A DNA stretch of 44,090 nucleotides from assembly GCA_012798455.1 (NCBI GenBank), contig JAAZNC010000095.1, forward strand, positions 1 through 44,090, in the 5' to 3' direction. Numbering within the stretch: the stretch's first letter is position 1; each line of letters starts with the position of its first letter. The DNA is from Chloroflexota bacterium (GTDB taxonomy: Bacteria; Chloroflexota; Anaerolineae; Anaerolineales; Anaerolineaceae). A model generated the notes under the pieces. The model had not been told where the DNA came from. It searched no databases and saw only the letters and a program-made list of their open reading frames with translations. Shown in pieces: positions 17,834-26,294 of the stretch. The translations under genes were made by a program, and so were the position numbers.

Positions 17834-18643
17834 TCATCTGATGGATTTAACAATATCCATGAATTCTTTCACTCGTGCCTGATCAACGTGATTTTCGAAT
17901 GTACCATCGTATTTGAAAGTAGTTCCTACCACAGCGCCATCTGAAAGAGAGAGCTGTTCTTTTACATTGGAGATTCTAACGCCTGTGTTTGCAAAAACGA
18001 TGGTCTCAGGTACAGCTTCTTTTACTAAGCGTAAAACTTGCATATCGGTTTCGCTACCAGCGGTGAGTCCCGAAACACACAAGGCATCTGGGCGGTGATT
18101 GAAAACTGTGGATTTAGCGATTTCAATCAGATCACGATCACCCAGATATTTGGCAGCTTCTGGAACGATATTGAACAGCAGTTTTACATTTTCTGCGCTA
18201 ATAGCTCTCTGGTGACGGACAGTCTCCCCGCAATTTGTATCCCAAAGACCAAAATCACTGGCATATACACCAGAAAAGATCTCGCGAACAAATTTTGCTC
18301 CAGTAGCAGATGCCAGGTCAAGCGATGCAATGGGATCCCATAAAACATTAACCCCAAAAGGAATGTGGATATCGGTTTTCAACTCGCCAATGATATCAGC
18401 CATGCTGGCGACTGTGATCGCAGGGACCTTGGTCAGGTAAGGGAGGCTAAATTCATTGGAAAACATTACAGCATCCACACCACCTTCCTGTAAAGCGCGC
18501 AAATCCTTACGAGCCCAATCTAATACATACTTCATTCCCTTTTCTTTTTCATAATAAGGGTCACCCGGTAAGGCGGAGAGATGGCACATGGCAATAATAG
18601 GTTTTTTCGTTCCGAAAATTTCTTCCGTCCAAAAAGTTTTCAT
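17834..18643 (-). CDS. BtpA/SgcQ-family TIM-barrel protein
   Basis: The 269-residue protein belongs to the BtpA family, which includes SgcQ of enteric sugar operons and the cyanobacterial photosystem-I biogenesis factor. Conserved segments are KPIIAMCHLSALPGDPYY at the N-terminus, GGVDAVMFSNEFSLPY, FGVNVLWDPIASLDLA, and the C-terminal FANTGVRISNV and GAVVGTTFKYDG. The fold is a TIM barrel related to phosphate-binding isomerases, and the biochemical activity is not established. It is alone in its transcription unit here, with a consensus promoter and a long leader. Given the sugar operon at 3714, a role in carbohydrate metabolism is more plausible than one in photosynthesis. Confidence 0.88.
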   Translation of the reverse strand: MKTFWTEEIFGTKKPIIAMCHLSALPGDPYYEKEKGMKYVLDWARKDLRALQEGGVDAVMFSNEFSLPYLTKVPAITVASMADIIGELKTDIHIPFGVNVLWDPIASLDLASATGAKFVREIFSGVYASDFGLWDTNCGETVRHQRAISAENVKLLFNIVPEAAKYLGDRDLIEIAKSTVFNHRPDALCVSGLTAGSETDMQVLRLVKEAVPETIVFANTGVRISNVKEQLSLSDGAVVGTTFKYDGTFENHVDQARVKEFMDIVKSIR

Positions 18644-18837: not shown

Positions 18838-18866
18838 ATTATAACATTTCAAAAAATAACTGTCAA
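18838..18866 (-). promoter_or_regulatory. Perfect-consensus sigma-70 promoter of the BtpA-family gene
   Basis: On the minus strand TTGACA (18866-18861) and TATAAT (18843-18838) are separated by exactly 17 bases. Transcription would start near 18831, leaving a leader of about 190 bases before ATG 18643. That leader shows no strong hairpin or riboswitch I can recognise. Confidence 0.85.
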
Positions 18867-18895: not shown

Positions 18896-18944
18896 CTGAG
18901 ATAAGAAAAGGAAGTCCATTTTGGACTTCCTTTTCTTATCTCAG
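18896..18944 (-). terminator. Long perfect inverted repeat ending the ubiquitin-like operon
   Basis: The 23 bases at 18896-18918 are perfectly complementary to 18922-18944, leaving a three-base loop. The outer arm overlaps the stop codon of the VWA gene. T-rich stretches lie inside the arm rather than after it. It probably terminates the operon and protects the 3' end of its message. Confidence 0.75.
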
Positions 18945-20056
18945 TCTTTCAAGATGATACGAATCTTCTTCCTTTTCTTTTTATTCAAATAACGTGTTAT
19001 TGACATGGGAATGAGTATTGCCAGTATCAGAATACCCAATAGTACCCCAAATAGCAGCCAGTTGCTGGTATCAGGAACTTCGGGGATCAAACCGCCGGGA
19101 TTATATGAAGAAACAGTGCCGCTTACATTGTTTTGCCAAGCTCCCCGCAGATGAACGGAAAGGGATCTTAACACCCCATCTCGCAAACTTTGCGGAGTAA
19201 TATAGCTGACCATGACTTCACTCTGTAATGATTGGCGAATATTTGTATAAAGTCCAACCAATTCCTGTGCATCCTGTACATAACCGTAGATGCCTCCGGC
19301 GTTTTGCGCTAGATTTCTCAGCGTGTTCTCATCAATGCCTTCATATTCATCCGGATTTTCATTTTCACTCGGTTGAGTGCCAAAACCGATGGTGGAAATG
19401 GATAACCCGCTTGCGCCGATTGCTTGAAGGATTTCATCAGAACTGTTCTGGCTTTGATTGTCCATCCCATCGGTCAATAAAATGATGGCTTTACGTCCTG
19501 CTAATGGATTCAACGTGCCGATTGCTTTGAGTAGGGCATCCCACATTGCGGTATCCCCTTGTGCACGAATTCCGGCAATACCTGCCAGCAAGGTTTCTTT
19601 ATCTGAGGTAATTCCTTGAACAGTTTGTACCTGGGTATTGAAGGTAATGATGCCAGCAGAATCACTTGAACGCATCTGTTCAACATAGGATGATGCAGCG
19701 CTCTTGGCTGTTTCAAGTTTGTTTGAGAAGTTCATGCTGCCAGAATTATCGATCAACAATAAACTGGTGAAGGATTCAACATTATCCATACCCTGAATGG
19801 ATTTTTTATCAACAGGGAATCCATCTTCGAGTAACTCAATGTCATTTGCCGGCACGGGCACCGGATTTCCAGTGACATCTTTGGCAGAGATATATACATT
19901 GACCAAAGGGAATTGACTGGTATCTATCTGAGTGATCTGTAATGAAACGGCATTCCCTGGCTGGTCGGTGGTGGGTTGATCTTTAACACATGCATTGAAG
20001 AGAACAGAAGCGATCAATATTCCAACAAGAAGAATTTTATGGTTTTGGTTGTTCAT
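18941..20056 (-). CDS. VWA-domain lipoprotein with C-terminal membrane helix
   Basis: The 371-residue protein has a lipoprotein signal (LVGILIASVLFNAC, lipidated Cys23). A von Willebrand A domain follows with a complete MIDAS (DNSGS, Asp103, Ser105, Ser107; later GDTAMWDAL and TDGMDN). Near the C-terminus is a membrane helix (LLFGVLLGILILAILIPMSI) followed by a basic tail. The VWA domain is therefore outside the cell, anchored at both ends. ATG 20056 is used because AAAGAGGT precedes it; an in-frame ATG at 20074 overlaps the FHA gene. It is the last gene of the ubiquitin-like operon, four bases after the FHA gene. Its role there is unknown: it may bind a metal-dependent ligand or assemble a membrane complex. 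Confidence 0.85.
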   Translation of the reverse strand: MNNQNHKILLVGILIASVLFNACVKDQPTTDQPGNAVSLQITQIDTSQFPLVNVYISAKDVTGNPVPVPANDIELLEDGFPVDKKSIQGMDNVESFTSLLLIDNSGSMNFSNKLETAKSAASSYVEQMRSSDSAGIITFNTQVQTVQGITSDKETLLAGIAGIRAQGDTAMWDALLKAIGTLNPLAGRKAIILLTDGMDNQSQNSSDEILQAIGASGLSISTIGFGTQPSENENPDEYEGIDENTLRNLAQNAGGIYGYVQDAQELVGLYTNIRQSLQSEVMVSYITPQSLRDGVLRSLSVHLRGAWQNNVSGTVSSYNPGGLIPEVPDTSNWLLFGVLLGILILAILIPMSITRYLNKKKRKKIRIILKD

Positions 20057-20060
20057 AACG

Positions 20061-20918
20061 CTACCTCTTTTCATGGTAAATCATCTCTGTCTTGCCGATG
20101 CGGATATGCTGCATATTCTTCAATTTTGCCACATCGATCTTTTTCCCGTCCAGATAGGTACCTTTCATACTGATATCTTTCAATGTAAAATAAGTATCGT
20201 GACCTTCCAGAATGGCATGCTGTGGGTCAATCCCCTCATCAGGAATGGCGATCTCTGCTTTCAGTGGGCTACTGCCAATGGTCGCTGAAGGACCGTCTTT
20301 GCGAAGAAATTTATCCAGAATGAATTCCATACCAGTGATCTTTCCAGTCACGATTTCCAACCATGTGCGCGATAGAACGAAACTGATCATGGCGGTGAAA
20401 ACGCCAGTGGAAAAACCCAGAAGAATCAATCCGGCTGCTTTCCCTAAGGCAAGATCTGCCAGCAGCGCCCGGCTGATTTCCAGCAGGATTCCGCCTACCA
20501 ATCCGCCGATGAGCCCTCCCAATCCGCCTTTCCAAAGCTGGGAACCACCAGTTATTGAGGTAGCAAAACCAACCAAAAGACCGAAGATAGCCCAACCTAA
20601 TGGACGACTCCAACTCTCGCCGCCGACTGCTAGAAAGAGAGTTTCCGCAAGGGGTAAAGCGATGGCACCTCCTAAAGCGCCCAGTAGGAAGGTGATCCCC
20701 CCCTTTTTAAAGGCAGCTCCCCAAGATTGTTCGAGCAGTCCTTGTCCAATTCCGATGCCTACACCGATCAGCCCACCAATCAAAGCTCCTACTATGGCTT
20801 CACTTAATAATAGATGTGCTGTGAATGAGAGCCCCAGCATATTGCTGATCTGCCATCCAAGTAATCCACCAGTGGCACCAGTCATCCCTAATGTATAGAA
20901 ACGGTGAGTTCTTTTCAT
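20061..20918 (-). CDS. Glycine-rich membrane protein with C-terminal FHA-like domain
   Basis: Residues 8 to about 185 are a series of hydrophobic, glycine-zipper-rich helices (for example GGLGGLIGGLVGGILLEI). Residues 197-285 resemble a cytoplasmic forkhead-associated domain, with ATIGSSPLKAEIAIPDEGID, QHAILEG and KDISMKGTYLDGKKI. FHA domains normally read phosphothreonine. Here the usual Gly-Arg is Ile-Gly-Ser (214-216), the Ser-Arg before the conserved His is Pro-Gln (His234), and the usual Asn-Gly is Lys252-Gly253, so phosphopeptide binding may be lost. GGAGGT lies ahead of ATG 20918. The start overlaps the JAB stop by four bases, tying it into the ubiquitin-like operon. Confidence 0.82.
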   Translation of the reverse strand: MKRTHRFYTLGMTGATGGLLGWQISNMLGLSFTAHLLLSEAIVGALIGGLIGVGIGIGQGLLEQSWGAAFKKGGITFLLGALGGAIALPLAETLFLAVGGESWSRPLGWAIFGLLVGFATSITGGSQLWKGGLGGLIGGLVGGILLEISRALLADLALGKAAGLILLGFSTGVFTAMISFVLSRTWLEIVTGKITGMEFILDKFLRKDGPSATIGSSPLKAEIAIPDEGIDPQHAILEGHDTYFTLKDISMKGTYLDGKKIDVAKLKNMQHIRIGKTEMIYHEKR

Positions 20919-21586
20919 ATTACCAATACCTCCATTTCTGGATTAGCTAGATCTAGTTCAGGTTTCAAGTTTTTCCAGAAAACCTTGCTTTTTTTTTCTT
21001 GAGTGATCAATTCATAAAATCCAAAATAACGACGTGTATCCAATTGCCCATTCTTCTGACGGATGAAAAAACCACCAGCGGAGGTGAAGGGTTCCACGAC
21101 CAGAGCTACTTGCCAGGGTTTTGGAAAAAAATTTTTGTGCAACCACTCATCCCAGGAAGAGAAGAACACACCCATTCTTGGATGGGTATGATACCAGCCT
21201 ACCAGTTGTTTATCGGGATGGTAGCGTTCCAAGAATTCGAACAAGGCGATTTGGCTATCACTGGTAAACGTGAGATGAGCAGCCCCGTGATTAGTATAAG
21301 GAGCTGCCAAGATAGTATCAATGACCAGAAATTCCTGCTGGAAAATTGTATCGTAACAATACTTACCAGCCATCCACCCACCGACCTCATTGTTTAGATC
21401 ACTTCCAGCATGCGCGCATACCCGAATATAGGCATTTGGGGTGATGAAAATTTTAACCAGGGGAGTAAATTCATCCTCACTGTTTTCTCGCGGGGTCCAT
21501 TCAAGGGCGTGGTGAATGGGCATGCGGGTCCGACGGGGATGCTCATGTAATTCTTGTTCGGGATGGAAGCGCAACTTAATTTCCAA
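20915..21586 (-). CDS. JAMM/JAB-domain isopeptidase of the ubiquitin-like operon
   Basis: This 223-residue protein has a complete JAMM metalloprotease motif: Glu67 in NEVGGWMAG, then His133 and His135 in GWYHTHPRMG, Ser143 and Asp146 in FFSSWDE, fitting HxH-x7-Sxx D exactly. JAMM enzymes cleave bonds after the C-terminal glycine of ubiquitin or ubiquitin-like proteins. Located directly after the free Ubl gene, it should remove the Ubl from targets or split the Ubl-E2 fusion. The start codon is TTG at 21586, with AAGGA placed correctly ahead of it. A 40-residue N-terminal extension precedes the domain. No signal peptide is present, so it acts in the cytoplasm. Confidence 0.93.
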   Translation of the reverse strand: MEIKLRFHPEQELHEHPRRTRMPIHHALEWTPRENSEDEFTPLVKIFITPNAYIRVCAHAGSDLNNEVGGWMAGKYCYDTIFQQEFLVIDTILAAPYTNHGAAHLTFTSDSQIALFEFLERYHPDKQLVGWYHTHPRMGVFFSSWDEWLHKNFFPKPWQVALVVEPFTSAGGFFIRQKNGQLDTRRYFGFYELITQEKKSKVFWKNLKPELDLANPEMEVLVI

Positions 21587-21624
21587 GGATATTCCTTTTC
21601 TGTATATATGAAATAAATTGTTAT

Positions 21625-21891
21625 TTATCCTGCAGTAATATCTGCAGTGATCATGAGTCGATCATCTTCAGGCACGCCAGCGGATTCGAGCGTTTCATCC
21701 TCTTTTAATTCGCGACCCAATGCTTTGCTGTCTAGGCGATAACTGACCGGACGTCCATCCGGACCAACCGTAGGCAGTTCCAGAGTTGTAGCCAATTCGG
21801 GTAGTAGATCTTTAATTTCTACATCACCGGGTACTTCAGCGTTGCGTGAGCCGCCGGAAGGTAGAACCAGTGTTACGTTTTTATCGGACAT
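21625..21891 (-). CDS. YukD-type ubiquitin-like protein (free Ubl)
   Basis: The 88-residue protein has the beta-grasp pattern of YukD/EsaB-like ubiquitin relatives: strand KNVTLVLPSGG, helix DVEIKDLLPELATTL, and a closing strand DRLMITADI. It ends in Thr-Ala-Gly with nothing after, so the terminal glycine is exposed from the start and needs no processing before activation. Ubiquitin ends Gly-Gly, but Ufm1 and Atg8 show that one glycine can suffice. It matches the first 88 residues of the E2 fusion at 63 positions by my alignment. AAGGAG precedes the ATG. It is the best candidate for the conjugated modifier in this operon. Confidence 0.92.
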   Translation of the reverse strand: MSDKNVTLVLPSGGSRNAEVPGDVEIKDLLPELATTLELPTVGPDGRPVSYRLDSKALGRELKEDETLESAGVPEDDRLMITADITAG

Positions 21892-21906
21892 TTTTAATTC
21901 TCCTTT

Positions 21907-22758
21907 TTATTTCAACTTAATTTTCGGTTTTGCCGTTTTAAACTGCGGTTTCTTTTCTATTTTGATACGTTCAGGACGCAGTAATTCCCTTCCGTCCACC
22001 GGGAACACTCCAGGGTGAGTTTTCCGGTATCCCTGGCACCATTTAGCAGCTTCCATATCCCAAGGAAATGGTGGTTTTTGAGGGTCATCGTGATAATTCT
22101 TGTACTGCACCATTTCTCCCAGCATGATTACCAGGCGATCCAATGAGCGGCTGGCAGACCACCAGGCAGCGTCAATACACACACTGCCATTGGCATGGTT
22201 GATATTAGGATGCCAAACTGGTGTCAACCATTTCATACCTGGCCAACGTTGTGGGTACTGATTGTGGAGATAAATTTCCACTTCGTGTTTATTTCCAAAT
22301 TTCGGATTGCCTTTCTTATCGATCCCAATGATGCCTTTACATTTATATGTAACAATATATTTTTCAGGAGGAAGACCCCCCTGTGTCTTTTCCGCTTTGA
22401 CCGAAATCAGATCGCTACGAGCATTGATTTCCTGAATAAGTTCAAAATCTTTCTTTAAACGACGCATACGCGGGCTGGAAGATACTGCAACGGAACCTGC
22501 TGTAATATCGGTGGTGATCATCAAGCGATCGTCAGTGGGGATACCTGCCTGATGAAGGGTTTCTTTTTCTCGTAGCTCTCTCCCCAGGGCTTTGCTATCT
22601 AAACGGTAACCCAGCGGACGCCCGTCAGGTCCAACGGTAGGCAGACTCAACAAAGATGTCAATTCCGCCAGCAGGTCACCTACTGGCACATCATCCGGCA
22701 TATCTGCTTTACGTGCGCCCCCGCTGGGTAATACGAGTGTTACTGAAATATCTGGCAT
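21907..22758 (-). CDS. Ubl-E2 fusion: ubiquitin-like domain joined to E2 conjugating enzyme
   Basis: Residues 1-88 are a ubiquitin-like domain nearly identical in layout to the free Ubl, down to the ending DITAG at 84-88. Residues about 95-255 are an E2-like (UBC-fold) enzyme with the classic HPN (183-185) and catalytic Cys194 in NGSVCIDAAWW. A basic tail (RPERIKIEKKPQFK) ends the protein. E2s accept the activated modifier from E1 on this cysteine and pass it to a target lysine, often with a RING protein. The Gly88-Ser89 junction looks like a site where the JAB enzyme could release a Ubl, as ubiquitin is released from ribosomal fusions; alternatively the domain may stay attached. Strong AGGAGG ribosome site. 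Confidence 0.93.
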   Translation of the reverse strand: MPDISVTLVLPSGGARKADMPDDVPVGDLLAELTSLLSLPTVGPDGRPLGYRLDSKALGRELREKETLHQAGIPTDDRLMITTDITAGSVAVSSSPRMRRLKKDFELIQEINARSDLISVKAEKTQGGLPPEKYIVTYKCKGIIGIDKKGNPKFGNKHEVEIYLHNQYPQRWPGMKWLTPVWHPNINHANGSVCIDAAWWSASRSLDRLVIMLGEMVQYKNYHDDPQKPPFPWDMEAAKWCQGYRKTHPGVFPVDGRELLRPERIKIEKKPQFKTAKPKIKLK

Positions 22759-22779
22759 ACATTCCTCCTAAGCAGTTCT

Positions 22780-23658
22780 TTATAGCGCATGTTTATGAGC
22801 GATTTGGCATGATCCGGTTACATCCCAGCAATCTTTGTGATGCCAAGTACCACAATCCGGACAAACTACCACCCCACGCGGATCATTCTTTTTCACTTCT
22901 TCCAAACAATAGGGACAGCGATGATCTTCGATACCGACCAACCTGACATTCTGTGCATGCTTTCGAAAAGTTCTGGACGATGACTTCATTTTCTTCGCCG
23001 TTGTTTTCTTCACAGTCATATTTTTGTCGGGCATATCTACTTTTACGGTTGATGTACTAGCTTTTTTTGTGATCTTCATTGAAGTAGTTTTTGGTGATGG
23101 GCTCTTCTTTTTTACGAGAGTTTTCTTTACGGTCGGTTTTCTTCTGACTGAAGAAATTCTGGTTTTCAATTGTTGGAAATTATGATTGATACTGGAACGT
23201 ATCCGATTAACAGAATTGGTTACATTGCCATTCTTTTTCGGAGATGGTTGGCTTGGCGTAATGCCAACTTTCTTTTTTCTAAATAGAGTGATGAACAGAC
23301 TTAACACTAACAAAGCACCAATTTGTGTATATTCTCCCACCGCCCACTCTGAAAATGGCTTTGTCCTCGTCAAAAAACTGTAGGAGTTTAAAAAAAACGC
23401 ATCCAAAATGAGCAAGCTGAGAATACTGCCCAATAAAGAGAACAATACTTTCAAGATCGCAAATCTGGAGGAAATTGCAAAACGGCAAACCAACCCGACG
23501 CCTAATCCGATACCGAGAAGGATGGTGATGCGTGTGAATAACTGCCCGATCTCGGAGGAAGGCGAAAGATAATAGATGATCAGGTATCCGGTGCCTGCCC
23601 CAACTGTGACAGCCAGCAGTAAAATCAATAAAGCTTGAAGAAATGTGATCTTAGACAT
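22780..23658 (-). CDS. Membrane-anchored RING-like protein, putative E3
   Basis: The 292-residue protein has four predicted membrane helices (about 5-30, 40-60, 65-90 and 108-127). A long lysine- and serine-rich linker follows (about 128-238). The C-terminal treble-clef zinc domain has Cys248, Cys251, Cys266, Cys269, His274, Cys277, Cys284 and His288, with the core CPDCGTWHHKDCW. The eight ligands fit a cross-brace RING/PHD-like arrangement, as in prokaryotic RING families noted beside Ubl, E1 and E2 genes. I infer that it acts as an E3, bringing the charged E2 to targets at the membrane. The linker's many lysines could be modification sites. It begins five bases after the E1 stop. Confidence 0.85.
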   Translation of the reverse strand: MSKITFLQALLILLLAVTVGAGTGYLIIYYLSPSSEIGQLFTRITILLGIGLGVGLVCRFAISSRFAILKVLFSLLGSILSLLILDAFFLNSYSFLTRTKPFSEWAVGEYTQIGALLVLSLFITLFRKKKVGITPSQPSPKKNGNVTNSVNRIRSSINHNFQQLKTRISSVRRKPTVKKTLVKKKSPSPKTTSMKITKKASTSTVKVDMPDKNMTVKKTTAKKMKSSSRTFRKHAQNVRLVGIEDHRCPYCLEEVKKNDPRGVVVCPDCGTWHHKDCWDVTGSCQIAHKHAL

Positions 23659-23663
23659 TCTCT

Positions 23664-25304
23664 CTATTTTTTGGGTTCGACTTTGATCTTGTGTTCGTGC
23701 AGTTTGATGAGTGGTTTTTCTGCATCTTTTTGTGGATCGATCTTGATAGATTGTATTTCTCCTAATTTGATCATCGGTTTTTGGAAGTGATTGAAATGTA
23801 AAGCGTTTTGTAGATCTCCGCTCAATTCATAGAACGCATATTGGTCTGCATTGTAAGCTCTTAATATATGCAGCTTCGGTATTCCCAAGCTGGCAAGCGT
23901 ACGATTTAAGTACGGTTCATCCCCGGTGATCAGGTGCGTCATCTCAGTTTCACGCAGCATGCCACAGGTCGGGCAGTGAGCCCTATTGAATCCCACTTGT
24001 GAAATGGGTTGTAGAATATCTTCTTTCGTTTGGCAGTTACGGCAATAAAGTGATAGGATAATCTCCTGATCGAGTTCCAATACTGCTTGTGAACCCAGGT
24101 CATGCCGGATGATCTTGAGCATGTCATCCAGAGTGGTCGTATCAGCTCTTAATGGTAGTTCAACAACTTTCCCATAGGTCCAATGACTTTCACATTCTTC
24201 CATCGGAGTGTAGTTGGTCTTGTGCATTTCATTGGTCATTCCATTGAAATGGATGACCTTACCGGCTTCAACAGGTTTTTCATGGATCAATTTCAACGTT
24301 TCCTGGGCTTGAATAGATCCAATAATAGAAGCAATGGTTGGAGTGGTGGGAACTTTTCCCAACAGTACATTTTCTCGGGCTAACAACGGGCAGGAATAGC
24401 GGATAGAAAGATCACGTCGGGCTTGTTCTGTCAACGTACATTCGAAACAGGCTCCCTCGCCCGGGACGAAAACCCGCGCTAATCCAAAGAATTCCTGAAT
24501 TGCTCCATCGACCCAAGGTTTGTTCATCCAATAACAAAAACGGTTTACAGCCAATCGAGCCTCGCGATTATCCAGGCAACCAATCACCACATCCATACGT
24601 CTGAAAACTCCCAATCCAACTTCGGTGGTCACATCACCATGTAAATATTGAACGTGAACGTTGGGATTGATTTCCTTGGCACGGGCAGCTGCCACTTCAG
24701 CTTTCTTTCTTCCAGTATCGCTTTCTCTGAAAAGAACAGAACGGGAGAGATTTGCCATTTCAATGGTATCGAAATCGATGATATATAGGAACCCCACACC
24801 CATCAGGACCATATTTTTGATCACTTCATTGCCCAGCGCCCCTGCCCCCACGATCATCACATGCGCATTTTCGACTTTCTCCCGTTCCCACCATGAGATA
24901 AATGAAAAAGTACCCAAACGGTCTTTCTGCAAATTAGGAATGATCAGCGGCTTCTCCGGGTTGACTGGCAGTCGTTTAGGCCCCTCGGGGATTTCTTCTA
25001 GCAAACCAGGCTCAATGGAAATTCGCTGCCCACTATCTTTGTCCGCAATTTCATGTGCCTTTAGCAGGCTTTCTTCATCCAAATCAGCGATGAATGAACC
25101 GACACCATGACGTACTTCGATAATGCCACTATCTTCGAGGGTCTTCAATGCTTCGCGCAGAGTGGTACGGCTGACACCGAACTGCTTGACCAGATCCCGT
25201 TCCGCTGGTAACTGGTAGCCGCTGTGATATACTCCGTCGAGAATCATGCTGGCTAATTTTCCTGCAACAATCTCTGATAAGGGTGGGCGTGAAATTGTTT
25301 CCAT
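23664..25304 (-). CDS. E1-like ubiquitin-activating enzyme fused to a GntR DNA-binding domain
   Basis: Residues 7 to about 75 are a GntR/FadR winged helix (LPAERDLVKQFGVSRTTLRE, GIIEVRHGVGSFIAD). Residues about 133-350 are a ThiF/MoeB/E1 adenylation domain with nucleotide loop GAGALG (153-158), acidic IIDFDTIEMANLSR, CFEC zinc pair (286, 289), probable catalytic Cys305 in RYSCPLLAR, and the PTTPTIASIIGSIQAQE segment. A C-terminal module has two more CxxC pairs (421/424, 444/447). It should adenylate the Ubl C-terminus and pass it to the E2. ATG 25304 is chosen because GAGGTG lies ahead of it; an ATG at 25388 is upstream of the promoter. A perfect GntR-type palindrome sits at the promoter, so the enzyme probably represses its own operon. 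Confidence 0.93.
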   Translation of the reverse strand: METISRPPLSEIVAGKLASMILDGVYHSGYQLPAERDLVKQFGVSRTTLREALKTLEDSGIIEVRHGVGSFIADLDEESLLKAHEIADKDSGQRISIEPGLLEEIPEGPKRLPVNPEKPLIIPNLQKDRLGTFSFISWWEREKVENAHVMIVGAGALGNEVIKNMVLMGVGFLYIIDFDTIEMANLSRSVLFRESDTGRKKAEVAAARAKEINPNVHVQYLHGDVTTEVGLGVFRRMDVVIGCLDNREARLAVNRFCYWMNKPWVDGAIQEFFGLARVFVPGEGACFECTLTEQARRDLSIRYSCPLLARENVLLGKVPTTPTIASIIGSIQAQETLKLIHEKPVEAGKVIHFNGMTNEMHKTNYTPMEECESHWTYGKVVELPLRADTTTLDDMLKIIRHDLGSQAVLELDQEIILSLYCRNCQTKEDILQPISQVGFNRAHCPTCGMLRETEMTHLITGDEPYLNRTLASLGIPKLHILRAYNADQYAFYELSGDLQNALHFNHFQKPMIKLGEIQSIKIDPQKDAEKPLIKLHEHKIKVEPKK

Positions 25305-25318
25305 AAACACCTCGCGCG

Positions 25319-25339
25319 GTGGTATATTGGTCATACCAC
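25319..25339. promoter_or_regulatory. GntR/FadR-type operator palindrome over the transcription start
   Basis: GTGGTAT (25319-25325) and ATACCAC (25333-25339) form a perfect inverted repeat with a seven-base spacer. The core read on the minus strand, TGGTATGACCA (25338-25328), fits the TNGTNNNACNA consensus of FadR-subfamily operators. It lies just downstream of the -10, where bound protein would block RNA polymerase, and about 15 bases before the GntR-E1 start codon. Confidence 0.8.
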
Positions 25340-25347
25340 TGCACCAT

Positions 25348-25376
25348 AGTATAGATGTTTTTTTTAGGAATGTCAA
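25348..25376 (-). promoter_or_regulatory. Consensus sigma-70 promoter of the ubiquitin-like operon
   Basis: On the minus strand TTGACA (25376-25371) and TATACT (25353-25348) are separated by exactly 17 bases. The predicted start near 25341 lies at the edge of the GntR-type palindrome. All seven operon genes downstream are tightly packed and could be read from this one promoter. Confidence 0.87.
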
Positions 25377-25529
25377 TATAGGCAACATAGCAGGATTAAA
25401 ACGTGCCCTCCAACATTCAAGGAAAAGGTTATTTAATTAGAAGGATACTAAGAAGATATTTATAAAAGCATGGCTAAATCCAGCGGTATAATCTACCCGT
25501 CATAAATTCTTTTTAATATGGAGGTTTTC

Positions 25530-26294
25530 ATGCTCCGGGTTTTGAAAATGGTAGGGATAGTAGCAATCATTTCAGGAATTTTTCTCCTGACTTCTTGTTC
25601 TTTGATCGAACCGAAAGTTGTTGAAGCAACTGTTTTGGTTCCACAAACCGTGGTGGTCACTGAGATTGTCGAAAAAATCGTGACTGCTACTCCGGCACCC
25701 GCAACCATTACTCCTTTGGTGACAGTAATTAGCACACAATCAACATCGTTGTCCGAACCTGGCGCTGCTACTCCTTCTGCCTATGTCAATCAAGCCAGCA
25801 CTGATTCAACTTCTGACGGTAAAATGCTCAATGGATTGAGCGGATGGTGTATGCCGCTCGGCTCCACCGGACCGGGTGACATTGATTATGGTAGATATGG
25901 TATGCCAGTTACTGGCAGACCGGGGAGAGTAGAGGATGGTATGAATGTGATGCATATTCCTGGTGAATACTGCACACTGATATTTGAATTCTCATCACCG
26001 GTAGGAAGTGGCGGAAAAGTGGAAGTGAAACAGATCCATAATAATCAAACTTTTTATGAGGTTGATCTCACCCCTTCGGCAGCCAATCCCAATATCAGTT
26101 ATGCTCATCTCTATCATAATTATGTAATCAACCCACCCTTGTGGGGTGTCTCTTACCTGATCGAAGCGGTTGACGGAAATGGTTCGACACGTTGGAGTGG
26201 AGAAATCTTGTTCCAAAAAACCGACCCAGGATTATGTTGGGATGGTTCCACTCCTGATCCGGTGAGTATGTGGTGCCCAAAATATGATTGGTAG
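25530..26294 (+). CDS. Secreted lipoprotein of unknown function
   Basis: The 254-residue protein begins with a lipoprotein signal (VAIISGIFLLTSC) and a Thr/Pro/Val-rich stalk (TATPAPATITPLVTVI). A compact C-terminal domain with four cysteines follows (GWCMPLG, EYCTLIFEF, LCWDG, MWCPKYDW). I do not recognise the domain; the spaced cysteines suggest disulfides outside the cell. The start is ATG 25530, supported by GGAGG at 25520-25524. It is divergent from the ubiquitin-like operon and has its own strong terminator, so it forms an independent unit. A TATAAT at 25487-25492 could be its -10. Confidence 0.8.
   Translation: MLRVLKMVGIVAIISGIFLLTSCSLIEPKVVEATVLVPQTVVVTEIVEKIVTATPAPATITPLVTVISTQSTSLSEPGAATPSAYVNQASTDSTSDGKMLNGLSGWCMPLGSTGPGDIDYGRYGMPVTGRPGRVEDGMNVMHIPGEYCTLIFEFSSPVGSGGKVEVKQIHNNQTFYEVDLTPSAANPNISYAHLYHNYVINPPLWGVSYLIEAVDGNGSTRWSGEILFQKTDPGLCWDGSTPDPVSMWCPKYDW

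Follow-up and report, generated by a model that had tools for sequence, protein, structure and literature searches.

Many Chloroflexota carry a conserved seven-gene operon whose predicted function is to attach a ubiquitin-like protein (Ubl) and to take it off again. It is described here from a 44,090-nucleotide stretch of DNA of a Chloroflexota bacterium of the Anaerolineaceae (contig JAAZNC010000095.1, positions 1 to 44,090, forward strand), hereafter referred to as the window. The activating enzyme (E1) of this operon bears a GntR-type DNA-binding domain, which would bind a double-dyad operator at the promoter of its own operon and ahead of an envelope lipoprotein gene. Most likely, the E1 acts as a repressor that is relieved by Ubl activation, a reading to which we assign a probability of roughly 0.6 on the basis of the sequences. 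An earlier note on the same DNA had recognised the seven genes as an operon for Ubl conjugation and removal, and this observation holds as a whole at the sequence level.

The GntR-E1 fusion and its operator

Homologues were collected by scanning a collection of species genomes with an E1 alignment. This yielded 240 relatives, the best 80 of which were used, all of them from Chloroflexi or one of its subgroups; conservation counts refer to alignments of the operon homologues from which rows below length limits had been dropped. The E1 is read from the Met codon at 25304, giving 546 amino acids, since the best homologue (P0001) has the same length, an AGGTG ribosome-binding site lies ahead of this codon and the operator is upstream of it. 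Its N-terminus matches the Pfam GntR model at 69.7 bits, a match missed in the earlier note, while a PDB search with residues 1-85 returned a Rv0494/FadR entry and PdhR. GntR and ThiF domains occur together in all of the best 120 of 6180 E1 homologues, whose public names include 'GntR family transcriptional regulator', 'ThiF family adenylyltransferase' and one JGI name joining both. The residues E35, R36, R46 and R50 of the helix-turn-helix (HTH) are invariant (72/72), the arginines being presumably the DNA-contact positions, and a winged HTH with such conserved Arg residues is that of the GntR/FadR transcription factors.

FadR/GntR regulators carry an effector domain of the FCD/FadR or UTRA type. 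Pfam detected no such domain on the E1, where ThiF stands in its place; hence, the protein is regarded as an E1 with a GntR HTH and not as a FadR-subfamily regulator. In a tree of 50 E1s, the 30 with GntR fell on one side of a single branch (support 70/60), and none of 500 shuffles scored as low. A single origin of the fusion is likely, although not firmly shown.

A consensus promoter had been proposed for the operon. The -35/-10 pair is indeed present at 25376/25348, with 11 of 12 bases, and while the scan total of the window is no higher than that of shuffles (13 vs 16.0), this promoter draws support from its constant position next to a conserved operator, a 27-bp site, missed in the earlier note, that lies one base beyond the end of TTGACA-17-TATACT. 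The region upstream of the E1 start was scored in 78 loci, the window included. The core TGGT-N3-ACCA is exact in 63 of them and has one mismatch in 11, such that 74/78 possess it at up to one mismatch, against a background rate of 0.07 per kb in the same loci, operator sites counted in. Alignment of these 74 sites gives TGGT-N4-TGGT-CTG-ACCA-N4-ACCA, directly after a -10-like box, and the full 27-bp site is found within one mismatch in 32/78 loci and within three in 65/78. The possibility that the operator is conserved merely as coding sequence was rejected, since its distance to the E1 start ranges from -8 to -50 and the offsets fall in all three frames. According to the available part of PMC4494728, FadR-subfamily regulators recognise TKGT/ACMA boxes with a usual spacing of 3 nt, and some GntR motifs have additional boxes. 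The site described here, with TKGT/ACMA boxes at 3-nt spacing at a regulated promoter, is of the GntR/FadR kind.

The occurrence of the site follows that of the fusion. Among E1s collected at class level (some of whose genomes overlap the 78-locus set), 11 have GntR, and of these eight show an exact site within 700 nt, two show one with a single mismatch and one shows none, whereas the 20 without GntR have no exact site and five one-mismatch sites. Across the order, the exact 27-bp site was found in 25 of 79 E1-bearing genomes and in 4 of 321 E1-less genomes (Fisher p 1e-15, kinship ignored), compared with one of 400 genomes for a reversed control pattern. The E1-less L163 and L164 have exact double dyads, one at a LeuA-like gene and one some 120 bases ahead of an S-adenosylmethionine-synthetase-like gene (both genes identified by eye), which hints that this double dyad also serves other GntR proteins.

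The draft genome contains two exact copies of the 27-bp double dyad, one at the E1 operon and one ahead of the gene of a lectin-fold lipoprotein. The second operator precedes the same lipoprotein gene in 10/10 genomes opened, and a close orthologue of this lipoprotein is encoded by 10 of 147 genomes of the family, all of which have the E1. A role at the cell envelope, as had been suggested earlier, gains independent but indirect support from this, because the only other exact operator copy of the draft genome precedes an exported lipoprotein.

Genes resembling those of the NurA nuclease and the HerA helicase lie directly 3' of the operator-bearing lipoprotein gene in most genomes that have it (L123 5614-7385; L136 5972-9509; L133 5972-9472) and are possibly part of its transcript. 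Two genomes have a third operator site, ahead of another small lipoprotein (L130 5019-5663; L134 5115-5759; 39% mutual identity).

The operon and its products

The seven minus-strand open reading frames (ORFs) lie head to tail at 18941-25388 (Table 1), and their coordinates bear out the tight packing noted earlier: four junctions are gaps (5, 21, 15 and 38 nt) and two are overlaps (4 and 14 nt). All products exceed the Pfam gathering cut-offs, for ThiF (plus GntR), Prok-RING_1, YukD with UQ_con, YukD, JAB/Prok-JAB, FHA and VWA, respectively. The full set was found in one fixed order in 66 of the 80 loci. Of the 14 incomplete loci, 13 are cut off by a contig end at most 854 bases beyond their last gene found; the remaining one, L095, has no FHA and VWA genes despite 7.2 kb to spare. 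The linkage of the FHA and VWA genes to E1 and E2, which the earlier note had named as a test, is thus confirmed, both being fixed members of the operon. Furthermore, protein distances across the seven genes co-vary (Spearman 0.61-0.86; 57 loci).

The MoxR, VWA2, lipoprotein, two-component pair and BtpA neighbours were rejected as parts of the operon. They turn up in just 2-6 of the 80 loci (without correction for contig ends) and the seven-gene operon is, therefore, taken as the unit. Ubl, E1, E2 and JAB protease stand together in it with their key residues kept, as in operons of the Bil/Bub type, while no cGAS-like nucleotidyltransferase, as expected of cyclic-oligonucleotide-based antiphage signalling systems (CBASS), was detected by Pfam among the seven genes, which are the same in the 66 complete loci. 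Within the order, the E1 is common but patchy, being found in 79 of 400 sampled genomes and in 51 of the 210 good ones.

The E1 keeps its GAGALG motif, with a single Ala-to-Ser change in 74 sequences, and its three CxxC pairs (74/74). Cys305, whose number in the earlier note is right when counted from the Met at 25304, is conserved in 74/74 and sits 16 residues after a CxxC, which we take to be the spacing seen in the E1s of NEDD8 and SUMO. It is likely the catalytic cysteine, a role that is plausible but not backed by the alignment with UBA5 considered below. The HPN motif and Cys194 of the conjugating enzyme (E2) are invariant (74/74), as are Glu67, His133, His135, Ser143 and Asp146 of the JAB protease (70/70), in agreement with the residues named earlier. 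The best PDB match of the latter is eukaryotic RPN11 (41.5 bits), followed by 6fjv, an 'N11-like protein' (36.7 bits) that is presumably archaeal.

The free Ubl is 88 amino acids long in 69/71 homologues and carries AD[IV]TAG at its very C-terminal end in 70/71. Against the PDB it gave nothing below an E-value of 0.11, with the first four matches all named 'ubiquitin-like protein'. The fused Ubl domain of the E2 keeps the TAG (74, 73 and 73 of 74 by position), and because the linker behind it varies, the internal TAG is suggested to be a kept cleavage site. The view of the free and fused Ubl as recent, homogenised copies was rejected, as the best cross-genome match is from free to free in 69/70 cases and from fused to fused in 73/74.

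The membrane RING protein, a putative E3 (ligase), has nine invariant Cys/His residues (C248, C251, C266, C269, H273, H274, C277, C284 and H288; 76/76), and its zinc ligands come with a Prok-RING_1 match of 42.9 bits against a cut-off of 29.1. In the PDB, its matches had E-values of 0.045 or worse and were mostly to ion channels over hydrophobic stretches, with one match of a PHD finger to residues 251-284 (E 0.18). Burroughs, Iyer and Aravind reportedly described bacterial membrane RING (Prok-RING_1) proteins beside Ub, E1, E2 and JAB genes in 2011.

A complete set for Ubl conjugation and removal, three membrane proteins included, is supported at the sequence level; two of its proposed details, a VWA lipoprotein and a normal phosphopeptide-binding FHA domain, were not borne out. 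The FHA protein is a fixed member of the operon, but its domain is degenerate: the position of the phosphopeptide Arg is occupied by Ser216 in 66/66 sequences, at variance with phosphothreonine binding, and that of the phosphopeptide Ser by A (50), D (9), S (4) or E (3), where we assume the assignment of the canonical Arg and Ser positions to be right. As for the VWA protein, a lipobox Cys aligns in only 9/62 sequences, with a gap in 48. The residues of its metal ion-dependent adhesion site (MIDAS), D109, S111, S113, T175 and D202, are present in 62/62, and two transmembrane (TM) segments in 55/62.

A motif, [KR][IV][KRHTSQ][LIV][KRHW], lies within two residues of the C-terminus in 56/74 Ubl-E2, 32/74 E1 and 32/61 VWA proteins. 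Among the remaining four proteins of the operon none of 282 sequences has it, and among 705 other ORFs two do, one being, by its coordinates, the VWA gene of L086; within the last 60 residues, E1, Ubl-E2 and VWA have it together in only 18/57 loci. Since a hydrophobic segment precedes it in the VWA protein, this tail should be cytosolic there. The shared tail suggests that E1, E2 and VWA dock on one common partner. The Ubl is acidic (isoelectric point 4.3) and is a candidate for this partner, though only as a guess.

Table 1. Positions of the operon, its promoter and its coding features in the window
Feature	Positions	Strand	Basis
-35 hexamer TTGACA	25371..25376	-	promoter scan
-10 hexamer TATACT, one base ahead of operator	25348..25353	-	promoter scan; similar spacing of -10-like box in homologues
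27-bp double-dyad operator TGGT-N4-TGGT-N3-ACCA-N4-ACCA	25320..25346	-	exact match
Operator core TGGTATGACCA	25328-25338	-	exact in window
E1, fusion of GntR winged HTH and ThiF/E1 adenylation domain, 546 amino acids (ORF open to 25388)	23664..25304	-	Pfam, homologue length
GntR DNA-binding domain of E1, residues 10-72	25089..25277	-	Pfam PF00392, 69.7 bits
ThiF/E1 adenylation domain, residues 135-371	24192..24902	-	Pfam PF00899, 192.5 bits
Putative catalytic Cys305 of E1	24390-24392	-	74/74; catalytic role inferred
Membrane RING protein, putative E3	22780..23658	-	hydrophobic segments and Prok-RING_1
Prok-RING_1 domain, C-terminal	22789-22926	-	Pfam, 42.9 bits, cut-off 29.1
Ubl-E2 fusion; HPN; internal TAG at residues 86-88; C-terminus PKIKLK	21907..22758	-	Pfam YukD and UQ_con
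Putative catalytic Cys194 of E2	22177-22179	-	conservation
Free Ubl, 88 amino acids, C-terminus ADITAG	21625..21891	-	Pfam YukD, 40.7 bits
JAB/JAMM metalloprotease, putative deconjugating and processing enzyme, TTG start	20915..21586	-	Pfam, conserved residues
Membrane protein with degenerate C-terminal FHA domain (20094-20282)	20061..20918	-	Pfam, 38.5 bits
VWA protein: N-terminal signal/TM, predicted extracytoplasmic VWA, C-terminal TM and basic tail	18941..20074	-	Pfam; start maybe Met at 20056

Around the operon, a divergent plus-strand gene of lipoprotein-like appearance (window 25518-26294) lies between the E1 and MoxR genes; it has no Pfam match and recurs in 4/80 loci. Between the VWA gene and the gene at 17834-18643, the minus strand holds a perfect promoter, TTGACA-17-TATAAT, whose -10 is preceded by a TG (18838-18866); the gene at 17834-18643, which we take to be BtpA-like, probably has its own transcript because of this promoter. 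An Rfam scan of the window gave tRNA-Lys as the sole match. In more divergent loci (L085, L087, L088, L089, L091 and L094), some 1.1-1.4 kb of extra sequence between the Ubl and JAB genes holds a second JAB-like match (37-41%).

Proposed mechanism and alternatives

In the proposed mechanism, an E1 dimer would occupy the operator as long as Ubl or ATP is in short supply or goes unused and, with the operator overlapping the transcription start, would repress both the operon and the lipoprotein gene. Adenylation of Ubl, or its passage to Cys194 of the E2, would reshape or occupy the ThiF half and thereby release the DNA, such that the demand for conjugation would raise its own supply, with the E1 behaving as a trigger enzyme. 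The Ubl, with TAG at its C-terminus, would move from a cysteine of the E1, most likely Cys305, to Cys194 of the E2, and the RING protein would direct it to targets that are probably at the membrane, because this putative E3 is a membrane protein. The JAB protease would remove the Ubl and may, in addition, cleave the Ubl-E2 fusion behind the internal TAG, while the VWA protein would face outwards and sense or hold something outside the membrane. More tentatively, and with the balance perhaps tipping slightly against it, the E1 may be a transcription factor that reads Ubl activation and sets both its operon and a lectin-like lipoprotein of the surface, the tails of E1, E2 and VWA being docked, in a circuit leading from the envelope to the promoter.

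Several observations weigh against the repressor model. The operator core is absent from four of the 78 loci (L034, L093, L094 and L098) in which the HTH region was matched, and L175, from the class-level set, has no operator site either. Only 23/78 loci and 25 of the 79 E1-bearing genomes of the order have an exact full 27-bp site; a search allowing one mismatch found none in 10 of 23 E1-bearing genomes searched. The exact sites in four E1-less genomes adjoin other genes, so that the pattern may also be used by other GntR proteins, while the 10 genomes with the lipoprotein form one clade and are not independent. On the protein side, the DNA-contacting wing residues 66-67 of the GntR domain vary, and the free Ubl exposes no C-terminal Gly-Gly of the ubiquitin kind, ending instead in TAG with its single terminal Gly. 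In the PDB alignment of E1 residues 230-400, UBA5 ranked top, with its cysteine (presumably the catalytic Cys250) opposite Leu314 and with Cys305 at a gap, which slightly lowers our confidence. An AlphaFold model of the E1 built with 27 close homologues was poor (predicted local distance difference test 51.6; predicted template-modelling score 0.43) and lends no structural support to coupling.

Three rival explanations were ranked, with plain autorepression before phage defence and the latter before another GntR protein. The leading rival, although unlikely, is that the GntR domain makes the E1 a fixed autorepressor, whereby the level of E1 is sensed rather than the charging of Ubl, and no link exists between chemistry and transcription. 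Negative autoregulation is the commonest regulator motif (in the accessible portion of PMC4494728) and the operator overlaps the predicted transcription start; what speaks for coupling instead is that the HTH is fused to the catalytic domain, and not separate, in the best 120 of 6180 homologues, and that the site also stands ahead of an unlinked lipoprotein gene, although neither point is decisive against autorepression. There is likewise only a small chance that the operon is a phage-defence system of the Bil or Bub kind, in which infection would lead to Ubl being placed on phage or membrane targets and the HTH would serve only to set expression. Against this reading stand the absence of PADLOC matches for five of the seven proteins, the kept order of the seven genes with their co-varying distances, and a second operator target that is a lectin-fold lipoprotein; for defence count the patchy E1, the flanking genes that recur in so few loci (contig ends uncorrected), the partial E1-E2 matches in PADLOC (25 of 33 matches listed) with one JAB match, and the placement of some Bub operons under DNA-damage regulators (PMC13373217, in the part available). 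The earlier note had argued against a defence island; because of the patchy distribution, a defence role retains some probability.

It is improbable, and the least likely of the three, that the operator belongs to a separate GntR regulator of the cell while the HTH of the E1 has lost DNA binding or serves otherwise. Ten weaker GntR-HTH matches elsewhere in the genome and the exact site in four E1-less genomes could be read in this way. However, exact sites track the fusion and not the E1 as such (8/11 vs 0/20), the HTH arginines are invariant, and E1-bearing genomes have the exact 27-bp site far more often than E1-less ones (25/79 vs 4/321).

Relation to known systems

Bacterial Ubl operons of the Bub and Bil kinds have reportedly been described by Chambers (2024), Hoer (2024) and Ye (2026). 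They resemble the present operon in that Ubl, E1, E2 and protease are encoded together, some with dedicated transcription control (available parts of PMC13373217 and PMC12687455). Of 544 Bub operons, 219 adjoin CapW or CapH with CapP, and 59 adjoin CapK with CapS, as given in the accessible text of PMC13373217; these regulators are encoded separately there, whereas the E1 described here contains the DNA-binding domain itself. Moreover, the RING, degenerate-FHA and VWA membrane proteins and the Ubl-E2 fusion are fixed members here, unlike in Bub and Bil operons. The cascade of Caldiarchaeum subterraneum is similar in its Ubl, E1, E2, small RING protein and JAMM protease (Rpn11), and this Rpn11 cuts ubiquitin off the N-terminus of a fused protein, which is what the Ubl-E2 fusion would need (PMC5654768, part available). 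In contrast, its ubiquitin is matured to a di-glycine, whereas the Ubl here ends in TAG without an extension, and the accessible portion of PMC5654768 reports no HTH, FHA or VWA partner.

PdhR, FadR and LldR, of the GntR/FadR group, share the winged HTH and the TGGT-N3-ACCA operator, but have a ligand-binding C-terminal domain in place of the E1, and the operator here is a double dyad. The trigger enzymes PutA and BirA each combine an enzyme with a DNA-binding regulator, and in this the E1 resembles them; we know of no ubiquitin-type E1 among trigger enzymes.

Other Ubl loci occur in the group. The Pelolinea submarina genome (G691/G400; NZ_AP018437.1), in which the seven-gene operon is present and the lipoprotein gene lies at about 138 kb, has a second one (L167 5649-11597). 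Beside a GntR-less E1, inspection by eye shows two E2-like genes, a Ubl-like protein with ITSAR at its end, a VWA protein and a RING-like protein there, such that VWA and RING recur beside a different E1. A further E1-Ubl-E2-JAB operon with a GntR-less E1 is present in another family of the class (L018/L127 and L019/L128), the short flanks of which gave no match to the RING, FHA or VWA proteins of the window.

Operons of Ubl, E1, E2 and protease are already known from Bil and Bub, and what may be new is the DNA-binding domain inside the E1. No account of a GntR-E1 fusion was found in the literature searched, which left most specialist papers on bacterial Ubls outside, so that an earlier mention is possible. 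In the ubiquitin systems considered here, transcription control and conjugation enzymes are separate proteins, whereas here they would be joined in one polypeptide. As the likely DNA target can be identified from sequence, the relation between Ubl charging and DNA binding is testable with two purified components. Bacterial Ubl conjugation would also gain a candidate role other than phage defence, one at the cell envelope, given that the sole further exact operator of the draft genome stands ahead of an exported lipoprotein.

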